Origin: an uncultured SAR116 cluster alpha proteobacterium
Lineage (GTDB): Bacteria; Pseudomonadota; Alphaproteobacteria; Puniceispirillales; Marisalimonadaceae
Length of the DNA stretch: 64,000 bases
Reading direction: 5' to 3'
NCBI GenBank assembly: GCA_902615325.1
Contig: CACMOJ010000001.1
Location: forward strand, 62,001-126,000
In this document: positions 30,339-41,424 of the stretch, piece after piece
How the letters are laid out: every line of letters begins with the position of its first letter
How positions within the stretch are numbered: position 1 is the stretch's first letter
The notes under the pieces: model-generated
What the model saw: only the letters and a program-made list of their open reading frames with translations
What the model was told of the DNA's origin: nothing
The model's database searches: none
Translations under genes and position numbers: made by a program

Positions 30339-31184
30339 ATGAATAAGAATTCAAATATTGGATTTGTTGGTCTTGGGAATATGGGAAAGCCAATATTTGA
30401 TAATCTAAATAAAGAATTTTCTAACGTTTTTTGTTTTGATAAAGATACATCCAAATTAAAAGTAAATAAATTCTCCTCTTCTCTAAATGAAATTTTTGAA
30501 AAATGTAAAATTATAATTTTTTGTATTGAATCAAATGAACAAATTATTGATATCATTAAAGAAAACGCAATAAAGAAAAATACAATTATTATTGATTTAA
30601 CAAGTTCACATCCAGAGTTAACAAAGCAAATTTCATCTTACTTAAAAATATTTGAATCACATTACATTGACGCTGGTATGTCAGGAGGTGCTTCAGGGGC
30701 AACAAATGGTACACTTACTTTAATGCTTGGTGGCGATAAAACTATATGTAAAAAAATCGATTTTATATTAAATACATTCGCAAAAAATATATTTTATCTT
30801 GGTAAATCGGGAAATGGTCATCTTTTGAAATTATTGCATAATTCAGTATGTCATAGTATTTTTTTAATAAATTGTGAAATTCTAAATATAGCTAAATCAT
30901 ATGGAATTACTGACACTGAAGTAATTGATGTATTTAATAAATCTAATGCTAGAAGTTATATTAGTGAGAATAGATTTCCAAATAATATTTTAAATGGAAA
31001 ATTTAATGGAAAATCAACAATTAAAAATCTTAAAAAAGATTTAAAAATGATGAATTCAATTTTAAAAAATTCAAAAAGTAAAAAAAAATATACCGAATTA
31101 AGTGATGAAATTTTAAGTAAAATAGATGATAAGTTAAATATGGAAGATTTCACAAATATTTATAAGATGTGGGACAAAATTTAA
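30339..31184 (+). CDS. 3-hydroxyisobutyrate dehydrogenase-family oxidoreductase (divergent)
   Basis: A 281-residue beta-hydroxyacid dehydrogenase. GFVGLGNMGKPIFDNL is the dinucleotide-binding site, DAGMSGGASGATNGTL the substrate-binding signature (normally DAPVSGG) and GNGHLLKLLHN carries the catalytic lysine. It starts 4 bp after the DppC-like gene, so it is probably co-transcribed. Its very high Lys/Asn/Ile content and weak motif matches mark it as a fast-diverging member. NAD(P)H-dependent oxidation or reduction of a small 3-hydroxy acid is inferred. Confidence 0.8.
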   Translation: MNKNSNIGFVGLGNMGKPIFDNLNKEFSNVFCFDKDTSKLKVNKFSSSLNEIFEKCKIIIFCIESNEQIIDIIKENAIKKNTIIIDLTSSHPELTKQISSYLKIFESHYIDAGMSGGASGATNGTLTLMLGGDKTICKKIDFILNTFAKNIFYLGKSGNGHLLKLLHNSVCHSIFLINCEILNIAKSYGITDTEVIDVFNKSNARSYISENRFPNNILNGKFNGKSTIKNLKKDLKMMNSILKNSKSKKKYTELSDEILSKIDDKLNMEDFTNIYKMWDKI

Positions 31185-31745: not shown

Positions 31746-32447
31746 TTACTTTGCTAAATTTATGAAAACATCACCCATTCCAGACTGAATTTGATCAAGT
31801 GGCGTTCTATTTCTAATACTGCATTGTCTTCCAGTTATTCTATTAGCATATATCTTCCTTAAATCTGATGAGGAACAATATTTTGCATCATGTAAAACAC
31901 CTATAATTAATTTATCATCTGTTACAGAAACTTGTTTTTTATCAAGTTTGTTATTTTCACAAAAATAGTTTTTATTCACTTTTTTAGGAAAATCTAATTT
32001 ATTACATGGGTCTTTTATTAACAATACAAAATATTCTTTTACCCCATTCTTAAAGGTTTTTTTAACCTTTTTAACTGAAGCATATTTCATTAAATCACAA
32101 ACACAAGGCCAACAACATTTATAATAATATCCACAAACTTTTTTATCTGAACCTTCTTCATTTAAATATACAAAATGAGGTGTTGAATTTGGTCGAATTA
32201 AAGATCCAGAAACTGCACAATAAAGTTTGTTAACCTCTTTAAAATCTTCATAGTTTGTATATTTTTTTAAAATATGATTATAAAACTTAGGTCCAGCAGC
32301 ATTCCTATTAGAGTCAGGAAAAATTTTTGGCCAATCCTTAACTAATTCATTATAAAATTTCTCGCTTTCAGAATATGAAGAATTGGTTGAGATAATAAAA
32401 ATAGATAATAGAAAAAGAAATAATAAATTTAAGTTCAGCTTAATCAT
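31746..32447 (-). CDS. Secreted Cys-rich protein of unknown family
   Basis: A 233-residue protein with an N-terminal leader (LLFLFLLSIFIISTNSSYS) and about ten cysteines in the mature part, including the dense CGYYYKCCWPCVCDLMKY and later YCSSSDLR and QCSIRN. The pattern suggests disulfides or metal/cluster binding in the periplasm. It begins 8 bp after the stop of the FG-GAP protein gene, so the two are co-transcribed. I do not recognise the family. An extracellular or periplasmic accessory to the FG-GAP protein is the simplest guess. Confidence 0.65.
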   Translation of the reverse strand: MIKLNLNLLFLFLLSIFIISTNSSYSESEKFYNELVKDWPKIFPDSNRNAAGPKFYNHILKKYTNYEDFKEVNKLYCAVSGSLIRPNSTPHFVYLNEEGSDKKVCGYYYKCCWPCVCDLMKYASVKKVKKTFKNGVKEYFVLLIKDPCNKLDFPKKVNKNYFCENNKLDKKQVSVTDDKLIIGVLHDAKYCSSSDLRKIYANRITGRQCSIRNRTPLDQIQSGMGDVFINLAK

Positions 32448-32455
32448 AAAATTTA

Positions 32456-33871
32456 CTAAAGACCTTTTCTGAACACATAAGTTTTATTTAAATCATTTAT
32501 TTTATATTCATTTATAGACCCGTCAGTCCATTTAATTATAACATTCTTTATAATCTCATTTTTCCTAAAGCCATAATGAGCCACAGGTTCCATTTGGCAT
32601 AAATATCCAGAGCCAGCATCAATAGTTTTTGCATGTTTTCTTTTGTTCGTTACAAGAATTACAGTTGCTCCTCTAGCAGGTGCTCCATATGTAGTTTTAG
32701 GAGCTATCCTAAGAAATTTTTCACTCTTAATATTTGATTTAAATAATGACAGAGGCTGTGGCCCAGATTCTCCATGTGAAATTAATAATTCTAATATACC
32801 ATCATTATCAATGTCAGCTACAGCCGCCCCGGTACCTAAACCATTTTTTTCCAAAGCATTTGAAATTTTGATTTGAGTAATCTTACCATTTTCTAAAATT
32901 TTAAAAAGCTTATTAGGTTCACCTATATTATTCATAAAAATTTCATCATAACCATCATTATCAAAATCAGCTGATATTATTGTTCTAATTCGTGATGGTA
33001 TTCTAAACTCTTTACTGGCCATATCATTGAAAGTAGTTTCATTATTGACAAAAATTCTATGAAAACCTTCCCAATTACCATTTATTATATCTAAACTACC
33101 CCTATATAAAAAATCTGATAAAGTGGTTCCTCTACCATTTTGCAAAACATCATCTGTATTATATTCTGTTGATACATTATAAAATTTATCTTCATCATTT
33201 AAGTATAAAAAATTTGGCCCTCTCTCATTTGCAGCAAATATATCCATTTTATTACCTAAAATATGACCTGCTACCACAGCCCTTCCTCCAGTGATTTTAT
33301 CAATTTTTAAATCTGGAGCTATGTCGCGAATTAAATCATTATTTAATTCGTAAAATCGTGTTGGGCCACCATAATTAGCAACATATAATCCATATTTGCC
33401 ATCGCCTTTTCTATCGACACAGACGACCGAACGCCCTGCAGTTAAATTCAAATTATTTTGGTTTTTTGGTAATTCAAATAAATCAGTTATATCTTTATTA
33501 AAGTTTAACAAACGATCAGAATATTTTTTTTCTCCACTATACGTGTCTGTATTTAAGAAATATATTTCTTCGATTCCATCTTGATCTATGTCACAAGAGG
33601 CAACTCCAATAGTAGATCTTTTTTGATCAGAAAAAATTGAATCATTGATTAAATTTTTTAATACTCCATCTTTAAACCCTAATGCTAGATTTGGGTATCT
33701 AAAACCTGCAACTATAAATTCAAACTTATTATCATTATTTATGTCAGCAACTGAAACTCCGTAACTTAATCTATCAGTGTTATTTTCAATTAAATTAGTT
33801 ATATTTTTGAAAAAATCACTCATAGCCAATTTTGGAGTTAGAATTAATATAAACATCAAGATATATTTCAT
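32456..33871 (-). CDS. Secreted FG-GAP repeat protein with C-terminal ASPIC/UnbV domain
   Basis: A 471-residue exported protein. After a leader (MKYILMFILILTPKLAMS) it has repeated FG-GAP/VCBS-like calcium-binding loops of the DxNxDxxxD type (VADINNDNKFEFIVAG, CDIDQDGIEEIYFL, DFDNDGYDEIFMN, VADIDNDGILELLIS), which would form a beta-propeller. The ASPIC/UnbV domain follows (ARGATVILVT, YLCQMEPVAHYGFRKN, VIIKWTDGS). Relatives include CRTAC and UnbV-type bacterial proteins with no clear biochemical role. Surface adhesion or ligand binding is likely. It is first in a two-gene unit with the Cys-rich protein. Confidence 0.85.
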   Translation of the reverse strand: MKYILMFILILTPKLAMSDFFKNITNLIENNTDRLSYGVSVADINNDNKFEFIVAGFRYPNLALGFKDGVLKNLINDSIFSDQKRSTIGVASCDIDQDGIEEIYFLNTDTYSGEKKYSDRLLNFNKDITDLFELPKNQNNLNLTAGRSVVCVDRKGDGKYGLYVANYGGPTRFYELNNDLIRDIAPDLKIDKITGGRAVVAGHILGNKMDIFAANERGPNFLYLNDEDKFYNVSTEYNTDDVLQNGRGTTLSDFLYRGSLDIINGNWEGFHRIFVNNETTFNDMASKEFRIPSRIRTIISADFDNDGYDEIFMNNIGEPNKLFKILENGKITQIKISNALEKNGLGTGAAVADIDNDGILELLISHGESGPQPLSLFKSNIKSEKFLRIAPKTTYGAPARGATVILVTNKRKHAKTIDAGSGYLCQMEPVAHYGFRKNEIIKNVIIKWTDGSINEYKINDLNKTYVFRKGL

Positions 33872-34087
33872 AAATAATATCTAAATCTATTTTTTTTTAA
33901 TTCAATACATCAATGAAAAGATATTTAAACAATGTTAAGTTAGCTTGTCATCATGAAAATACTATAAATTTTTAATTAAAAAAGATATCTCAATTTAATA
34001 AAATAACATACTGAATTTACTAATTTATTTTCTTTTGATGATTCTTTTGTTTGACTCCGAAAGCGTTTTCGTCAAAAATTTATATTG
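33872..34087. other. AT-rich divergent intergenic region
   Basis: This 216-bp gap separates the minus-strand FG-GAP gene from the plus-strand LacI gene and must hold both promoters. The only structured element I see is the LacI-type operator at 34058-34071; no small ORF is convincing. Confidence 0.5.
34058..34071. promoter_or_regulatory. LacI-type operator
   Basis: CGAAAGCGTTTTCG, a near-perfect palindrome (6 of 7 positions paired) with the central CG step typical of LacI/GalR-family operators. Flanking TTTGAC and GTCAAA extend the symmetry with a slight offset. It ends 16 bp before the LacI start codon, so the repressor likely controls its own operon of transporter and hydrolase. Confidence 0.75.
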
Positions 34088-35119
34088 ATGTCAAATTCAT
34101 CGCTTAAATCAATCGCAAAAAAACTTAGTTTGTCTGAGTCAACTGTCTCTCGTGCGCTTAATGATTATAAGGATATTTCACTAAGCACTAAGAAATTAGT
34201 AAATGAAACTGTCGTTGAGTTAGGATATCAGCCAAATATTTTTGCTCGAAGACTTGCATCTGGAAATCCTGAGTGTTTGGGTTTTGTTATACCGTGGCGT
34301 GATGGTCAATTAAATGATCCATTTTTAGGTGAACTTATGACAGGCATGTCAACTGCTTTAACAAAAATTGGATGGGATCTTACCGTGCTTGTTGCAAAAA
34401 GTTTTGAAAATGAAGTTGAGCTTTTTAAAAAATTATCCATGTCTAAAAATTTAAGTGGTTTAATTATATCTCGAACACTTAGAAATGATGAGAGATTTAA
34501 AATATTAAAAGATTTGAAAATTCCTTTTGTTGCTCATGGAAGATCTATTAATTGTAGTACTTCATCATGGTTAGATGTGGATAACGAAAGTGCATTTTTC
34601 GATATGACAAAACATTTCATTTCATTAGGTCATAGAAAAATTGCTCATATATGTGGCCCAAATGTTTATAATTTTTCTATACAAAGAATTGAAGGATGGA
34701 AAAAAGCACTTATGAAATCTGGTATTCAGATTAAAAGTGAATTTTTACAAGTTGCAGATTTAAGCTTTGATGGTGGTAAAATAGCTATGGATAAGCTTTT
34801 AAAGTTAAAGGACTTACCTACAGCTGTTAGTTGTGTTTCCGATACAGTGGCTATGGGAGCTATGCAATCAATGAGAAACCATAATTTGTCTCCTGGTAAA
34901 GAAATATCTTTAATGGGTTATGACGGATTAGAATTAGGTGCTTGGATTGATCCTCCTCTTTCTACAATGACACAACCAATACAAACTGTTGGAAAGAACC
35001 TTGCAGAAATGCTTGTTAATCTTGTAGATGGTAAGAAAAAACCATCAGATCTTCAGAAGCTTGTTCGTGCTAATATTTTAAGAAGAGCAACTGATAATTC
35101 ACCAATGACTACATCTTAA
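34088..35119 (+). CDS. LacI-family transcriptional regulator
   Basis: A 343-residue repressor. The N-terminal helix-turn-helix and hinge run from SLKSIAKKLSLSESTVSRAL (residues about 4-23) to GYQPNIFARRLASG, followed by a periplasmic-binding-protein-like ligand domain (DVDNESAFFDMTKHFISLGH, DGLELGAWIDPPLST). I use ATG 34088; the ORF track adds an upstream TTG. It opens a plus-strand cluster that ends at 41424 and is preceded by a matching operator, so autoregulation by the imported sugar or glycoside is likely. Confidence 0.92.
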   Translation: MSNSSLKSIAKKLSLSESTVSRALNDYKDISLSTKKLVNETVVELGYQPNIFARRLASGNPECLGFVIPWRDGQLNDPFLGELMTGMSTALTKIGWDLTVLVAKSFENEVELFKKLSMSKNLSGLIISRTLRNDERFKILKDLKIPFVAHGRSINCSTSSWLDVDNESAFFDMTKHFISLGHRKIAHICGPNVYNFSIQRIEGWKKALMKSGIQIKSEFLQVADLSFDGGKIAMDKLLKLKDLPTAVSCVSDTVAMGAMQSMRNHNLSPGKEISLMGYDGLELGAWIDPPLSTMTQPIQTVGKNLAEMLVNLVDGKKKPSDLQKLVRANILRRATDNSPMTTS

Positions 35120-35139: not shown

Positions 35140-36483
35140 ATGAAAAAATTATTAAATTATCTAATCTACAGTTTGATATTTACTTTTTTTATAAGTAATG
35201 CGTCTGCTGAGACGATTAGATTTTGGACTACTGAAGAACAGCCAGCCCGATTAGCCAAACAACAAGCTATGGCTGCTGATTTCAAAAAGAGAACTGGACA
35301 CTCTGTTGAGGTAATTCCAGTATCTGAAAAAGACTTAGGTAAAAGAGCTACGGCAGCATTTGCGGCTGGTGATTTACCTGATGTTATCTATCATACCTTA
35401 CAATATGTTTTACCTTGGTCAGAAGCTGGTATTTTAGATGTAGAAACTAATGATGACATTGTAAACTCGCTTCAAAAAAGCACGTTTGCTCCAGGAGCAA
35501 TTTCAATGGCTCAATTTAATGGTAAAACAGCAGCAGTACCAGTTGATGGATGGACACAAATGGTCGTCTACAGAAAAGACCTTTTTGATCAAGCTGGCTT
35601 AGCTGCCCCAACAAGTTATGCAAATATAGAAGCCGCAATTGAAAAATTACATAATCCACCAAATATGTATGGTTTTGTTGCTGCCACAAAAGTTGACGAA
35701 AACTTTATGAGTCAGGTTTTAGAGCATGTATTTCTTGCAAATGGAGTTTCTCCAGTTAACAAAAATGGTTTTTCAAAATTAGATGAGAAAGCAACTTCAG
35801 AGGTTTTGAATTTTTATAAAAAAATAGCTAAAGCATCACCAGCTGGTGAACTTTACTGGAAACAATCTCGTGCAATTTATTTTGCTGGAAAAGCGGCAAT
35901 GATTATATGGTCTCCGTTTATTTTAGATGAGCTAGCTGGTTTAAGAAATTCAGCTCCTCCAACAATAAATGATGATCCTACATCAAAAGAACTAGCTCAA
36001 AAAACTGGCATTGTAACAACTTTTGGTGGCCCTTCTAATCCGTCAGGAGCTGCTTGGGCTGATATAAGATATTTTGGAGTGACTTCGGATGCTAATACTG
36101 ATGTAGCTTCAGAATTTGTAAAATACTCAATGAAAGATGGTTATACAGCTACACTTTCAATAGCACCTGAAGGTAAATTTCCAGTAAGAAGAGGTGAACC
36201 ACTAAACACATCAAAATATGTAAAAGCTTGGTCAAAATTACCTGTTGGAGTTGATAGAAAAGCACCACTTTCAGAATTGTATTCACCTTTAACTATTGAT
36301 AAAATAGTTGCTGGACTTGAAACTGCTGATCGTTGGGGAGTTTCAGAAGGTCAACTGTCTTTAGCATCAAAAATTATTAACTCTCAAGTTATTAATCGTA
36401 TTGTTCGTGAATATATTGATGATCAAATTGATGTAAAAGCAGCTGTTGCAAAAATGAATAAAGAACTTTCATCAATTAAGTAA
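35140..36483 (+). CDS. Family 1 extracellular sugar-binding protein
   Basis: A 447-residue periplasmic binding protein with a leader ending ISNASAET. IRFWTTEEQPARLAKQQAMAADFKKRTGHSVEV is the standard SBP_bac_1 start; KRATAAFAAGDLPDVIY and VAAVPVDGWTQMVVYRKD-type segments follow. It is the capture component for the two permeases and ATPase downstream. AGGAGG before the ATG (after the LacI stop by 20 bp) suggests strong translation. The substrate is probably a glucosyl- or mannosyl-glycerate-like heteroside because a GH63-type hydrolase is embedded in the operon. Confidence 0.9.
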   Translation: MKKLLNYLIYSLIFTFFISNASAETIRFWTTEEQPARLAKQQAMAADFKKRTGHSVEVIPVSEKDLGKRATAAFAAGDLPDVIYHTLQYVLPWSEAGILDVETNDDIVNSLQKSTFAPGAISMAQFNGKTAAVPVDGWTQMVVYRKDLFDQAGLAAPTSYANIEAAIEKLHNPPNMYGFVAATKVDENFMSQVLEHVFLANGVSPVNKNGFSKLDEKATSEVLNFYKKIAKASPAGELYWKQSRAIYFAGKAAMIIWSPFILDELAGLRNSAPPTINDDPTSKELAQKTGIVTTFGGPSNPSGAAWADIRYFGVTSDANTDVASEFVKYSMKDGYTATLSIAPEGKFPVRRGEPLNTSKYVKAWSKLPVGVDRKAPLSELYSPLTIDKIVAGLETADRWGVSEGQLSLASKIINSQVINRIVREYIDDQIDVKAAVAKMNKELSSIK

Positions 36484-36554: not shown

Positions 36555-37835
36555 ATGAAAAAAAATGTTAAAAGAAAAGAGAGCATCTTATCAATAAGAG
36601 AAAAAAAACTTGCTTATTCTTTGATTTTACCAACAATGATATTGGTTTTATCTATAGTGATTATTCCACTTTTAGCAAATTTTTGGATATCTTTTAAACC
36701 AATTTCACTAGGTGATTTAAGACCACCCAATCTTATTTTAAAAGAGAGTGTAAGAAGTAAATTATCACCTACAAATGATTTTGCAAAAATTCAATACAGA
36801 TATAGAAATAGTTCATCAAAATATGAATTAAATGAAGTAGCTTTTAGTGATTTAATACCCAAAGGGATAATTGTTACCAAAATTAAATCTCAACATGACT
36901 GTAAAATAGAAAAGAATAAATTAGTTTGCAAACTTGGAAAAATTAAACCTAAAGCTTTTGGCAAAATAATATTGACAATTACAAAAAATGAGTTCTGGAA
37001 TGATAATGACAACCCTAAATCTCAGAAACCTGAAGCAACATATAAGAGTACTAACATTTTAACTTCATTACAATTTACTTTTGAGAATTTTAAAAAAATC
37101 TTTTCTGCAAGTGAATTTTGGAATGTGTTAAAAGTTTCAATCTACTATACTTTTTTTGGTACAGCTGGTGCATTATTAATTGGCTTGTTTACAGCACAAA
37201 TTGTAAATAAATCTTTTAAAGGTCGTTCTTTTATAAGAGGATTACTTCTTTTTCCATATGTATCTCCCGTCATTGCAGTTGCATTTTCATGGGTAATTTT
37301 ATTTGATCCATATTCTGGGATAGTAAACTCCCTTTTTATACAAATGGAAGTTATAGAAAAACCAATTAATTTTTTTGGTCAAAAATATACTGCTATAAGC
37401 GTATTTGGATATAAATTTAATTTTCCTTTAGCTTTGACAATGGTTATAATATTTGAGATTTGGAGATATTTTCCATTATCTTTTTTGTTTATTCTGGCAA
37501 GAATACAATCTATACCACAAGATATATATGAAGCTGCTGAAATTGATGGCGCTACTCCTTTACAACAATTTTATTATTTATCAATTCCATTTCTAATAGG
37601 AATAATAGCTATTTTATTTTTACTCAGATTTATTTGGACGTTTAACAAATTTGACGATATTTTTCTTTTAACAGGAGGAAATGCTGGCACACGAACTCTA
37701 ACTGTAAATGTTTATGAACAAGCCTTTGCAATTTCTAACCTTGGTGCTGGTGCTGCGGTTGCAGTAGTAATTTTTATCTTCTTATTGGTTTTTTCTGTAA
37801 TTTTCATAAAATTTTCTAAAAAGGAAGCTATTTAA
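36555..37835 (+). CDS. Sugar ABC permease (MalF-type) with large inserted periplasmic domain
   Basis: A 426-residue permease. TM1 is at about 20-46. A soluble insert then occupies residues 50-172, and the normal permease resumes at FTFENFKKIFSASEFW. The EAA loop is in DIYEAAEIDGATPLQQFYYLSIPFL. Ordinary MalF/UgpA-type permeases are about 290-310 residues. The insert has a DUF11-like pattern: YRYRNSSSKYELNEVAFSDLIPKGI, then a CKIEKNKLVCKLG pair of cysteines, then KAFGKIILTI. It would lie in the periplasm, facing the binding protein, comparable in place (not sequence) to the P2 loop of E. coli MalF. Confidence 0.88.
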   Translation: MKKNVKRKESILSIREKKLAYSLILPTMILVLSIVIIPLLANFWISFKPISLGDLRPPNLILKESVRSKLSPTNDFAKIQYRYRNSSSKYELNEVAFSDLIPKGIIVTKIKSQHDCKIEKNKLVCKLGKIKPKAFGKIILTITKNEFWNDNDNPKSQKPEATYKSTNILTSLQFTFENFKKIFSASEFWNVLKVSIYYTFFGTAGALLIGLFTAQIVNKSFKGRSFIRGLLLFPYVSPVIAVAFSWVILFDPYSGIVNSLFIQMEVIEKPINFFGQKYTAISVFGYKFNFPLALTMVIIFEIWRYFPLSFLFILARIQSIPQDIYEAAEIDGATPLQQFYYLSIPFLIGIIAILFLLRFIWTFNKFDDIFLLTGGNAGTRTLTVNVYEQAFAISNLGAGAAVAVVIFIFLLVFSVIFIKFSKKEAI

Positions 37836-37836
37836 A

Positions 37837-39060
37837 ATGTTTTGGAACTATGGTATTTTTTGTGCAATTTTATCCGGCTCAGCTTGGGGAGTTTTCTGGC
37901 AAATTATTTTAACTATATTAGGGATATTAACTACTGGCCTGCAATTATCTCTAGAAATAGCTCCTAGTTTTATTTCTGGTGCTTCAATTGGTTTTGCATA
38001 CCTTTTTTATCAAAAAAATATTCAAATAAAACAACATATTATATTTGTTATTACCACTACCTTATTAATATACGGGTTCACTTTAGGTGATCCATATTAT
38101 AGTGAAAAAGAAAATGTTTTTATTGAGTTAATTTTAGTTTTAGTCACATCAATTTTTATATGGATAAGTATTTACTTAACATTAAAAAATATATCAATTG
38201 GAAAATTATCAAGATATCAATCTGAAAAATTTTATATTCGTTTATTATGGGGTTTAGGCTTAATTACATTAATATTGATTACTTTAATTCCTTTTTATAT
38301 AATGATAATGACTAGTTTAAAAAATCAACAAAGTTTAATTTTAAACCCTTTAGATTTGTCGTTAGATTTGAGCAACGGTTTTAGTAATTTATTCATTTCG
38401 TACATTGAACTTTTTAAAAATTATAATTTTCATATTTTCTTGATAAATTCATTTTTCGTATCAATAGTTACAGTTTTAATAACTTTATTGTTTTCAATTC
38501 CAGGAGCATATGCTTTAGCAAGATTGAGATTTCCTCATAAAGAATGGTTTTCAAGCTCTGTTATACTTATTTATCTGATACCATCAATCGTATTAGTTAT
38601 ACCTTTATATGCAGTTTTTTCACAATTAGGACTAAGAAATTCTCTCTTTGGTTTAATTATAGTGTATCCTGCAACGACAATTCCAGTTGCACTATATATG
38701 TTAAGAGGTTATTTCAGCACACTCTCTAGCGAAATTGATGATGCTGCTATTATGGATGGTCTATCTCGATTACAAATAATTTTTAAAATTGCCATGCCTT
38801 TATCTAAACCCGCTATAGTTAGCGTTGCTTTGTATGTCTTTATGATTGCTTGGAATGAGTTTTTATTTGCCTTTATGTTTTTAGATGATCCAAACTTATT
38901 CACTTTATCTAGAGGTATAATTTCATTAAATTCATCTGAAGTTCCACAACAACATTTAATGGCTGGTGCTGTAATAGCAACAATCCCAATAATGTTTATT
39001 TTTATATATTTAGAAAGATTCTTAATTTCTGGCTTAACTACAGGAAGCGTAAAAGGTTAA
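37837..39060 (+). CDS. Sugar ABC permease (MalG-type) with extra N-terminal membrane region
   Basis: A 407-residue permease. The last 275 residues are a normal MalG-type unit: first helix LLWGLGLITLILITLIPFYIMIMTSLK, the LFSIPGAYALARLRFP segment and EAA loop IDDAAIMDGLSRLQIIFKIAMPL. Before it, residues 1-130 contain about four additional hydrophobic helices (around 10-30, 40-57, 68-85 and 95-120) not found in standard members. It starts 1 bp after the MalF-type stop. The extra helices may pair with the unusual partner permease or represent a fused small membrane protein. Confidence 0.88.
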   Translation: MFWNYGIFCAILSGSAWGVFWQIILTILGILTTGLQLSLEIAPSFISGASIGFAYLFYQKNIQIKQHIIFVITTTLLIYGFTLGDPYYSEKENVFIELILVLVTSIFIWISIYLTLKNISIGKLSRYQSEKFYIRLLWGLGLITLILITLIPFYIMIMTSLKNQQSLILNPLDLSLDLSNGFSNLFISYIELFKNYNFHIFLINSFFVSIVTVLITLLFSIPGAYALARLRFPHKEWFSSSVILIYLIPSIVLVIPLYAVFSQLGLRNSLFGLIIVYPATTIPVALYMLRGYFSTLSSEIDDAAIMDGLSRLQIIFKIAMPLSKPAIVSVALYVFMIAWNEFLFAFMFLDDPNLFTLSRGIISLNSSEVPQQHLMAGAVIATIPIMFIFIYLERFLISGLTTGSVKG

Positions 39061-39062
39061 AT

Positions 39063-40376
39063 ATGATTACAATGATTAAAGAAGCTATAGATGTAATAAA
39101 AAAAAATGATCGTGGTGGCTTTACAATACCAACTAATCGACTTTACCCTCATCAATGGAATTGGGACTCGGGATTCACAGCATTAGGTATATCTTCTTTA
39201 GACAAATCACGAGCATGGCAAGAATTAGTTATGCTTATCAACGCACAATGGACTAATGGAATGGTTCCTCACATAATATTTCATGAAAATAATCCTAATT
39301 ATTTTCCTGGGCCCGACCAGTGGCAAAAAAATGCGGAGTCCCAAACTAGTTGTCACTCGCAACCGCCTGTTCTAGCTAGTATTATATGGCAAATGGTCAG
39401 TAGAGGAACAGAATATGATAAAATGAAGGCAGGTACTCTTTTTAAATCAGTAATGGCTTACCATAGATGGTTTTTTTTAGCTAGAGATCCTGATAAAAAA
39501 GGCTATGTAAGCATAATTCACCCATGGGAATCTGGTAGAGATAATTGTCCTGATTGGGACAATGGATTAAATAATATAAAAATTCCTAAAAATTTAGAAA
39601 AGTATTTTAGAAAAGACATATCCTATGTTGATAAACTAGAAAGGCCAACAGATGACCATTATGACAGATTTATGACAATTCTGAAATTTGGTAGAGATTG
39701 TAATTGGGATAATGTCAAAATGCATAATGAAGGGCCATTCCTTGCTATTGATCCTGGTGTAAATTTTATTTTACTTCGAGCAAATAAGGATCTTTATAAA
39801 CTTGCGAACTATCTTGGCTATATAGAAACTTTAGATGAAATAGAAAACTGGATAAGTGTTCTTGAACAAGGTTGTCAAAAAATGTGGAATAAAAATGTTA
39901 ATGCATTTACTTCATATGACAAAAGAACCAATACATATTGTGATGCTATAACTAATGCATCATTTCTTTGTTTTTATGCAGGTGTAGGCTCAAATCAACA
40001 GAAATCATACATGATTGATCATTGCAATAGGATATTAAATGATTGTAATTATGGCATGCCAAGTTTGGACCCAATGCACAAATGTTTTGAAAGTAAAAGA
40101 TATTGGAGAGGACCTATATGGAGCATAATGAATTACATGATTGCAATTGGTCTTGAAAATATAAATGAATTGTGTCTAGCAGACAAAATTAAAAATGATA
40201 CTATTCAATTAGTTAAAAAAAATGGAATGGCGGAATACTTTGATCCAATTACTGGTGTTGGTTTAGGTGGAAGAGATTTCTCTTGGACTGCTGCAATTCA
40301 TTTAGAATTGTTAAAAGACAAAATTGATACGAATTTAAAATATGATTTTATAAATAATAAAAATGTCATCAATTAA
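39063..40376 (+). CDS. GH63-like glucosylglycerate/mannosylglycerate hydrolase
   Basis: A 437-residue (alpha/alpha)6-barrel hydrolase. NRLYPHQWNWDSGFTALG near the N-terminus, IIHPWESGRDNCPDWD (likely acid D160) and MAEYFDPITGVGLGGRDFSW (likely base E391) match characterised bacterial glucosylglycerate and mannosylglycerate hydrolases, where an Asp and a Glu in the same contexts are catalytic. No leader, so it acts in the cytoplasm on an imported glycoside, releasing sugar and glycerate. It lies between the permease (3 bp gap) and ATPase (14 bp overlap) genes, which strongly ties it to the transporter. Glucosyl versus mannosyl preference, or a related glycoside, cannot be told. Confidence 0.85.
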   Translation: MITMIKEAIDVIKKNDRGGFTIPTNRLYPHQWNWDSGFTALGISSLDKSRAWQELVMLINAQWTNGMVPHIIFHENNPNYFPGPDQWQKNAESQTSCHSQPPVLASIIWQMVSRGTEYDKMKAGTLFKSVMAYHRWFFLARDPDKKGYVSIIHPWESGRDNCPDWDNGLNNIKIPKNLEKYFRKDISYVDKLERPTDDHYDRFMTILKFGRDCNWDNVKMHNEGPFLAIDPGVNFILLRANKDLYKLANYLGYIETLDEIENWISVLEQGCQKMWNKNVNAFTSYDKRTNTYCDAITNASFLCFYAGVGSNQQKSYMIDHCNRILNDCNYGMPSLDPMHKCFESKRYWRGPIWSIMNYMIAIGLENINELCLADKIKNDTIQLVKKNGMAEYFDPITGVGLGGRDFSWTAAIHLELLKDKIDTNLKYDFINNKNVIN

Positions 40377-41424
40377 ACTTAAAAATATTTCTAAATGGTT
40401 TGGAAACAATCAAGTTATAAAAAATATTAATCTAGAAATTAAAAATGGAGAATTTGTTGTACTAGTTGGTCCGTCTGGATGTGGCAAATCTACATTATTA
40501 AGAATTATATCAGGTTTAGAAGATCTGGACGAGGGTGAAATTCTGATTAACTCTGAAGATGTTACAAGTAAGATTCCTTCAGAAAGAGAATTGTCAATGG
40601 TTTTTCAATCTTATGCTCTATACCCTCACATGAATGTCTCCGAAAATATTGGTTTTTCTCTTAAAACATCAGGAATGAACAAAGTATTGTTAAAGAAAAA
40701 AATAGCTGAAGTGGCAAAAATTCTAAAACTTGATAATTTATTAAATAGACTTCCAAAACAACTTTCGGGTGGACAAAGGCAAAGAGTAGCAATTGGTAGA
40801 GCAATAATTCGTCAACCTAAAGCATTTTTATTTGATGAACCTTTATCAAATTTAGATGCTTCTCTACGTGTTGAAATGAGACTAGAAATTTCAAGACTAC
40901 ATAAACAACTTGGAATTACCACAATTTACGTAACTCATGATCAAGTTGAAGCTATGACACTAGCAGATAAAATAGTTGTAATTAATCAAGGAGAAATTAT
41001 TCAAGTAGGTTCTCCACGTGAATTATTTAACAATCCTAAAAATTTATTTGTAGCTGAATTTATCGGAACTCCTAAAATGAATGTCTTAAATTGTATTACA
41101 AAAAGAGGTTTTATTTACTTAAATAGTAGAAAGGATATTAAAACAAACATAAAAAAAACAGATGATAAAATAAATAAAATTGGATTTAGACCAAATAAAG
41201 TTAGTATTTGTGAAAAAGAAAAAGGTTTATTAAATGGTGAGATTAAATTTATTGAATATTTAGGTTCAGAACAATTTATTTATATTGATTGTGGAATTGA
41301 TGAAAAACTTGTAGTTGTTAAAACAAACCCAGATTATAAAATACCACTAAAAAAGATTGTTGGTCTCAAAATGTTATCAAAAGATATATATTTCTTTTTA
41401 AAAAATGGTGAGGTTTTAATTTAG
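40363..41424 (+). CDS. Sugar ABC transporter ATPase (MalK/UgpC-type)
   Basis: A 353-residue ATPase: Walker A GPSGCGKST, the Q-loop in VFQSYALYPHM, signature LSGGQRQR, Walker B AFLFDEPLSNLD and switch His in VTHDQVEAM. The C-terminal TOBE-type region (residues about 235-353) is present but strongly diverged. It overlaps the hydrolase gene by 14 bp and ends the operon. It energises the two long permeases. Confidence 0.93.
   Translation: MSSIKLKNISKWFGNNQVIKNINLEIKNGEFVVLVGPSGCGKSTLLRIISGLEDLDEGEILINSEDVTSKIPSERELSMVFQSYALYPHMNVSENIGFSLKTSGMNKVLLKKKIAEVAKILKLDNLLNRLPKQLSGGQRQRVAIGRAIIRQPKAFLFDEPLSNLDASLRVEMRLEISRLHKQLGITTIYVTHDQVEAMTLADKIVVINQGEIIQVGSPRELFNNPKNLFVAEFIGTPKMNVLNCITKRGFIYLNSRKDIKTNIKKTDDKINKIGFRPNKVSICEKEKGLLNGEIKFIEYLGSEQFIYIDCGIDEKLVVVKTNPDYKIPLKKIVGLKMLSKDIYFFLKNGEVLI

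Follow-up and report, generated by a model that had tools for sequence, protein, structure and literature searches.

The window analyzed here, that is, the whole stretch of 64,000 nucleotides from an uncultured SAR116 cluster alphaproteobacterium, contains a predicted sugar transport operon in which one of the two permease subunits (hereafter P1) carries a soluble segment of more than 100 residues between its first membrane helix and the permease core. The first-pass annotation compared this segment with the DUF11 beta-sandwich repeats and considered its placement in a MalF-type periplasmic loop to be undescribed. The questions raised by this locus are whether the insert is a genuine part of the permease, to which domain family it belongs, how it came to be there and what it might do for the transporter.

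The insert-bearing permease

A Pfam scan of P1 identifies the BPD_transp_1 domain at residues 207-417 (E = 9.5e-15). The PDB relatives of P1 (SugA, MalF and UgpA type) align with it only from residue ~172-178 onward, with an additional weak match to TM1; residues ~50-172 are therefore extra compared with short-loop permeases, and the soluble segment that had been noticed between the first helix and the core is indeed there (Table 1). The N-terminus of P1 is basic, hence presumably cytoplasmic; this feature, TM1 and the paired invariant cysteines of the insert together point to a periplasmic location of the latter.

The closest relatives of the window P1 come from SAR116 single-cell genomes (96-91% identity in the P1 gene), and the gene contains no internal stops in the 41 genomes searched. 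A search for further permeases of this kind found the insert in all 48 aligned homologues, which represent many independently assembled genomes (SAR116, Thalassospira, Rhodobacteraceae, Rhizobiales, a Leucothrix, a Thiotrichales and a betaproteobacterium); misassembly as the source of the insert is ruled out by this recurrence. The spaced cysteines picked out at first reading, C116 and C125, are present in 48/48 homologues despite the mean pairwise identity of 39% in the insert and, given such invariance, the insert cannot be attributed to chance.

Table 1. Coordinates of the operon genes and of the elements of P1 in the window.
Feature	Coordinates	Strand	Basis
LacI-family regulator	34085-35119	+	Pfam LacI, Peripla_BP
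Sugar-type solute-binding protein (SBP; SBP_bac_8/1)	35140-36483	+	Pfam
MalF/UgpA-type ABC permease subunit (P1) with insert, 426 aa	36555-37835	+	ORF; BPD_transp_1; UgpA/MalF/SugA relatives
P1 TM1, about residues 18-47	36606-36695	+	AF2 helix 11-47; hydropathy peak 23-41
Insert (residues 56-172), a DUF11-type immunoglobulin-like beta-sandwich, probably periplasmic	36720-37070	+	pLDDT 89.4, eight strands; DUF11 matches in homologues; hhalign E 2.1e-11
R82-x-R84-N85-x-S87 motif in insert	36798-36815	+	R82, R84, N85, S87 invariant
C116-x8-C125 cysteine pair, probable cross-hairpin disulfide	36900-36929	+	invariant 48/48; AF2 strands 115-119/122-130
P1 permease core, TM2-TM6 with EAA loop	37083-37832	+	alignment with SugA (7cad/8ja7) and MalF (2r6g) starts at residue ~172-178
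MalG-type permease (P2 permease)	37837-39060	+	core matches MalG from residue 139; hydropathy
MGH1-like glycoside hydrolase, glucosylglycerate/mannosylglycerate hydrolase type	39063-40376	+	PF22422 E 1.3e-102
UgpC/MalK-type ATPase	40363-41424	+	NF008653 above cut-off

Identification of the insert as a DUF11-type domain

DUF11 domains are found mostly in surface proteins. The window copy of P1 taken alone yields no DUF11 match in Pfam or NCBIfam scans; its AT-rich sequence, divergent within the family, accounts for this. Among the 48 homologues, PF01345 (DUF11) is matched by 26 full-length sequences at E<=1 (best E = 6.9e-9) and by 31 of the inserts scanned alone (best E = 5.1e-10). Two homologues, L079 (36.5 bits) and L041 (27.5 bits), when scored individually, exceed the curated PF01345 cut-off of 24.6. 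In addition, DUF7933, which is related to DUF11, is matched by 26/48 full-length homologues, and TIGR01451 by 21/48. Comparison of the insert profile with 22 DUF11 repeats drawn from the PF01345 search using hhalign gives a probability of 97.3% (E = 2.1e-11, score 64.7), compared with a score of at most 15.9 for 50 column-shuffled controls of the same alignment. Reciprocally, the insert profile recovers DUF11 repeat proteins of the ordinary type, encoded in unrelated genomes, which show the pattern SNTG..TISDTIPAGLTI..GCTAAGQTVTC; a sequence search of the PDB with the same profile matched nothing.

Alignment with the DUF11 repeats also clarifies the conserved positions of the insert. N85 falls at the position of the canonical DUF11 asparagine, and R82 and R84 occupy polar, outward strand positions that are variable in other DUF11 domains. 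The two cysteines span a predicted hairpin, with the 8-residue spacing equal to that of the C-x8-C pair in ordinary DUF11 repeats, and probably form a cross-hairpin disulfide. The resemblance to DUF11 noted from the sequence is thus real but visible only through the family; as a family, the insert is a DUF11-type domain.

Structure prediction is in line with this assignment. For full-length P1, AlphaFold2 supplied with the alignment of 48 rows places eight strands in the insert (pLDDT 76-91), although the membrane part is modeled poorly (pTM 0.45). When the insert is modeled alone, a confident eight-strand sandwich is obtained (pLDDT 89.4, pTM 0.79), so that the beta-sandwich expected from the strand pattern is borne out by the prediction. 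Foldseek searches with this model retrieve a wide variety of Ig-like sandwiches (CBM2, adaptin mu, integrin, alpha-2-macroglobulin); 9ifr appears at rank 41 with TM-scores of 0.63/0.61. The latter is a solved structure of a DUF11 domain, the family having been renamed CLIPPER (PMC12617251). The eight predicted strands agree with the Ig-like (CnaA-like) sandwich of 7-9 strands that is characteristic of DUF11/CLIPPER domains.

The Lys-Asp-Asn isopeptide triad is not kept in the insert: Asp99 is present in 46/48 homologues, Lys63 in only 18/48 (a SAR116-like clade), and no Asn is conserved where the last insert strand begins, the conserved Asn167 being located past the strand. With the Lys unconserved and the Asn misplaced, the possibility of an isopeptide bond was dropped, and the insert probably lacks this bond of adhesin DUF11 domains. 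Some DUF11 domains also lack the bond (PMC12617251), so that the missing triad does not exclude the insert from the family.

Distribution and origin

In a draw of 114 genomes from the class, P1 matches are of two discrete kinds without intermediates, namely those with at least 53% identity over the full length and those with at most 40% identity that align from residue ~170 only. In all 11 insert-less relatives that were retrieved, only a short segment separates TM1 from the core. On a tree of the core regions, with the insert omitted, the 28 insert-bearing permeases form one clade with 100/100 support that is separate from MalF; the nearest rows to this clade are insert-less permeases, a placement to be read with the caveat of long branches. 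A draw across the phylum detects the insert in permeases of 16/399 genomes, the matches in two more genomes being DUF11 surface proteins, and a draw of Gammaproteobacteria detects insert-bearing permeases in 2/274 genomes. The insert-bearing permeases are a large family, mostly of marine bacteria. The most likely scenario is that the ancestor of the P1 family received a DUF11/CLIPPER-type domain in its periplasmic TM1-TM2 loop, so that a MalF-like subunit acquired this domain on a single occasion and apparently separately from P2.

The literature searched contains no report that connects DUF11 with a permease. Both parts belong to known families, and it is their combination, the insertion site, the clade and the operon context that are seemingly undescribed in that literature. 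To this extent, the claim of novelty made at first inspection holds, though Pfam models already detect both domains in some relatives and the architecture is accordingly visible in the databases.

The operon and the predicted substrate

Glucosylglycerate is an osmolyte of (pico)cyanobacteria. In the window, P1 is embedded in a gene array with the order LacI, SBP, P1, MalG-type permease, hydrolase and ATPase. Everything that defines a type I sugar importer of the ABC superfamily (MalFGK2/UgpAEC class) is encoded there: an SBP, a pair of BPD_transp_1 permeases and an ATPase of MalK/UgpC type. The SBP and the MalG-type permease are each present in 79 of 80 related loci, the ATPase in 75 and the hydrolase in 70. 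The hydrolase was not found in the other 10, of which at least 6 are otherwise complete operons (L005, L007, L008 and L009 from SAR116, L064 and L076; one Thalassospira and one Salipiger are among these loci). In those six loci, the hydrolase may be encoded elsewhere or replaced.

The closest relatives of the hydrolase in the PDB are the Thermus mannosylglycerate hydrolase MgH (2z07, E = 9e-108) and the mycobacterial glucosylglycerate hydrolase. It matches the glucosylglycerate hydrolase equivalog NF047898 with E = 8.7e-95 and 318 bits, below the curated cut-off of 550, so that this model does not settle the exact substrate. In MhGgH, catalysis involves the acid Asp182 and the base Glu419, and glycerate is contacted by Tyr36, Trp40, Tyr88, Arg216 and Tyr375 (PMC6608630). 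Across 67 operon hydrolases, all 14 catalytic and substrate residues of MhGgH that were checked show complete or nearly complete conservation, including the catalytic pair, D160/E391. Furthermore, in 7 loci, from Maritalea, one Rhodobacteraceae genome and, in five cases, the Roseibium group, a glycerate 2-kinase gene is located beside the operon; hydrolysis of a glycosylglycerate would yield the substrate of this kinase. A MOFRL kinase is also encoded in the genome of the window, on another contig. The system is probably an ABC importer for glucosylglycerate or its mannose analogue mannosylglycerate, and the link to the substrate through the hydrolase is strong but not universal. The literature searched contains no paper on SAR116 and glucosylglycerate, and in public plasmid records 'sugar ABC transporter permease' is the label given to the permease and 'hypothetical protein' that given to the hydrolase.

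Several further features of these loci can be recorded. The kinase gene (DUF4147/MOFRL) on the Maritalea plasmid lies directly downstream of the operon (L211, 11776-13023), and similar genes are found near L041, L054, L057, L061, L065 and L071. The SBP shows a mean pairwise identity of 70.6% in 62 loci, little below that of the permease cores and suggestive of a single, fixed substrate. The MalG-type permease has about 135 extra, mostly hydrophobic N-terminal residues that belong to no Pfam family of their own and evolve fast, with 26% mean identity in 62 loci, compared with 73% for the core. Upstream of the operon in the window, there is a gene for a probably secreted FG-GAP/UnbV_ASPIC repeat protein (32456-33871, minus strand) that adjoins one for a small cysteine-rich protein (31746-32447). 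A gene at 30339-31184 resembles 3-hydroxyisobutyrate dehydrogenase and tartronate semialdehyde reductase, with weak equivalog matches, none of them above cut-off.

Possible roles of the insert

The TM1-TM2 loop of P1, a 6-helix permease, is equivalent to the TM3-TM4 loop of MalF, which is the site of the P2 domain: the P1 core from residue ~172 aligns with MalF from ~266, and in E. coli MalF the Pfam domain MalF_P2 (PF14785) spans positions 100-260. The description of the site as a MalF-type periplasmic loop is thus accurate. MalF-P2 contacts MalE (PMC3150292). The insert sits at the P2 site and plausibly performs the same job; no sequence kinship between the insert and P2 was found.

On balance, we favor, with moderate confidence, a type I glycosylglycerate importer in which a MalF-like subunit carries a once-inserted DUF11-type domain that works like MalF P2. 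P1 would be the MalF-like subunit of an importer composed of SBP, P1, MalG-type permease and ATPase, to which the operon adds the glucosyl-/mannosylglycerate hydrolase. Probably locked by a C116-C125 cross-hairpin disulfide, the insert would serve as a rigid arm, standing on the membrane, by which the SBP is held or oriented for delivery of its ligand to the channel and for signaling to the ATPase. Of this reading, the family assignment, predicted fold, site, retention and single clade of the insert, the operon and the conserved hydrolase active site come from computation, and the periplasmic side, the disulfide, the substrate and the docking role are inferred. Docking of the SBP by the insert has a somewhat better than even chance of being correct. 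The P2-equivalent position, the retention in all homologues and the invariant R82 and R84 at DUF11 positions that are otherwise polar and variable all point in this direction. The insert evolves fast and the SBP slowly (mean pairwise identity of 39% and 71%, respectively, with 74% for the permease core), and partial correlation of distance matrices reveals no special tie between the two (partial r of 0.16, compared with 0.45 for the insert and the ATPase), so that docking receives no support from coevolution. A more specific version, in which a surface-stalk DUF11 domain was recruited once and independently into the MalF P2 loop of an osmolyte (glucosyl-/mannosylglycerate) importer, as a second P2-type docking domain of type I ABC importers that holds the SBP, i.e., a case of convergent evolution, can be put forward tentatively, at somewhat less than even probability.

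The same fast evolution and lack of a coevolution signal speak for a rival reading in which the insert is only a structural spacer or a folding or stability module, or packs on the partner permease, without contacting the SBP; DUF11 domains elsewhere are mainly inert stalks (PMC12617251). Nevertheless, the insert is kept in every aligned homologue, its position equals that of MalF P2, and it contains several invariant residues within a variable domain, R82 and R84 at polar, outward strand positions among them, which makes such a passive role unlikely, if still worth serious consideration.

Another reading is that the insert is a diverged MalF P2 inherited with the permease, with the likeness to DUF11 being convergent. 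The topological position is identical, and the segment NRQALSDITAILPDG of E. coli MalF resembles RNSSSKYELNEVAFSDLIPKG of the insert in a single-sequence match. The candidate homology prompted by this look-alike was rejected once an alignment of 31 MalF proteins was used: the segment is not conserved in other MalFs, and the insert matches the MalF P2 profile with an hhalign probability of 1.6% (E = 0.03), to be compared with the far stronger DUF11 match reported above; MalF P2 itself matches DUF11 with 0.2% (E = 0.3). Moreover, Pfam MalF_P2 matches none of the 48 homologues, though E. coli MalF itself is matched, and the core tree, long branches notwithstanding, separates MalF from the insert family and places insert-less permeases nearer. 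On the strength of these profile and tree comparisons, descent from P2 appears largely refuted and is very improbable.

A contact of the insert with peptidoglycan or another envelope component, instead of the transporter partners, is no more credible than descent from P2. The prevalence of DUF11 in surface proteins would fit, R82 and R84 could bind acidic groups, and in simulations contacts of MalF-P2 itself with lipid head groups can occur (PMC3150292); however, the insert is a single domain beside the membrane, a Pfam scan of the inserts contains no peptidoglycan-binding motif, and no precedent was found. Least probable of all is a role in substrate capture, with the insert acting as a carbohydrate-binding module of the importer: CBM2-type domains (3ndy, 6qfs) top the Foldseek list, but this candidate was rejected given that the Foldseek matches are low-identity Ig-like sandwiches with many functions, conserved aromatics such as surface tryptophans are absent, the invariant positions being R, N, S and C, and importers of this type bind sugar via the SBP.

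If the P2-like role of the DUF11-type domain is correct, MalF is not unique in having a large periplasmic loop of this kind, the same site having been filled at least twice by unrelated domains, and the purpose of this loop becomes testable by comparison. SAR116 and other marine bacteria would then also have a likely dedicated route for taking up and degrading glucosylglycerate or mannosylglycerate.

Comparison with known systems

The insert shares with DUF11/CLIPPER domains (PF01345; TIGR01451; 9ifr) the sequence profile, strand order, length, a TDxLPxG-like motif, the Asn at the N-(T/S)-G strand end and the C-x8-C hairpin of many repeats. It differs in being a single copy within a polytopic permease, whereas in fibrillar adhesins DUF11 domains form tandem repeats. 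With MalF P2 (PF14785), the similarity is one of place and build: both are folded domains of more than 100 residues, predicted to be periplasmic in the case of P1, that occupy the same loop ahead of the helix starting the 6-TM core. There is no significant sequence match between the two, and MalF has two extra N-terminal helices (MalF_N_TM). The operon hydrolase resembles MhGgH and the Thermus mannosylglycerate hydrolase (GH63-like, MGH1 family) in keeping all the catalytic and glycerate-binding residues that were checked; its score falls short of the equivalog cut-off, and its substrate may be either the glucose or the mannose form. By core sequence, the nearest permeases are SugA (LpqY-SugABC, 7cad/8ja7) and UgpA, which have the same 6-TM type I fold, but in these proteins the TM1-TM2 loop is short and the insert is absent.
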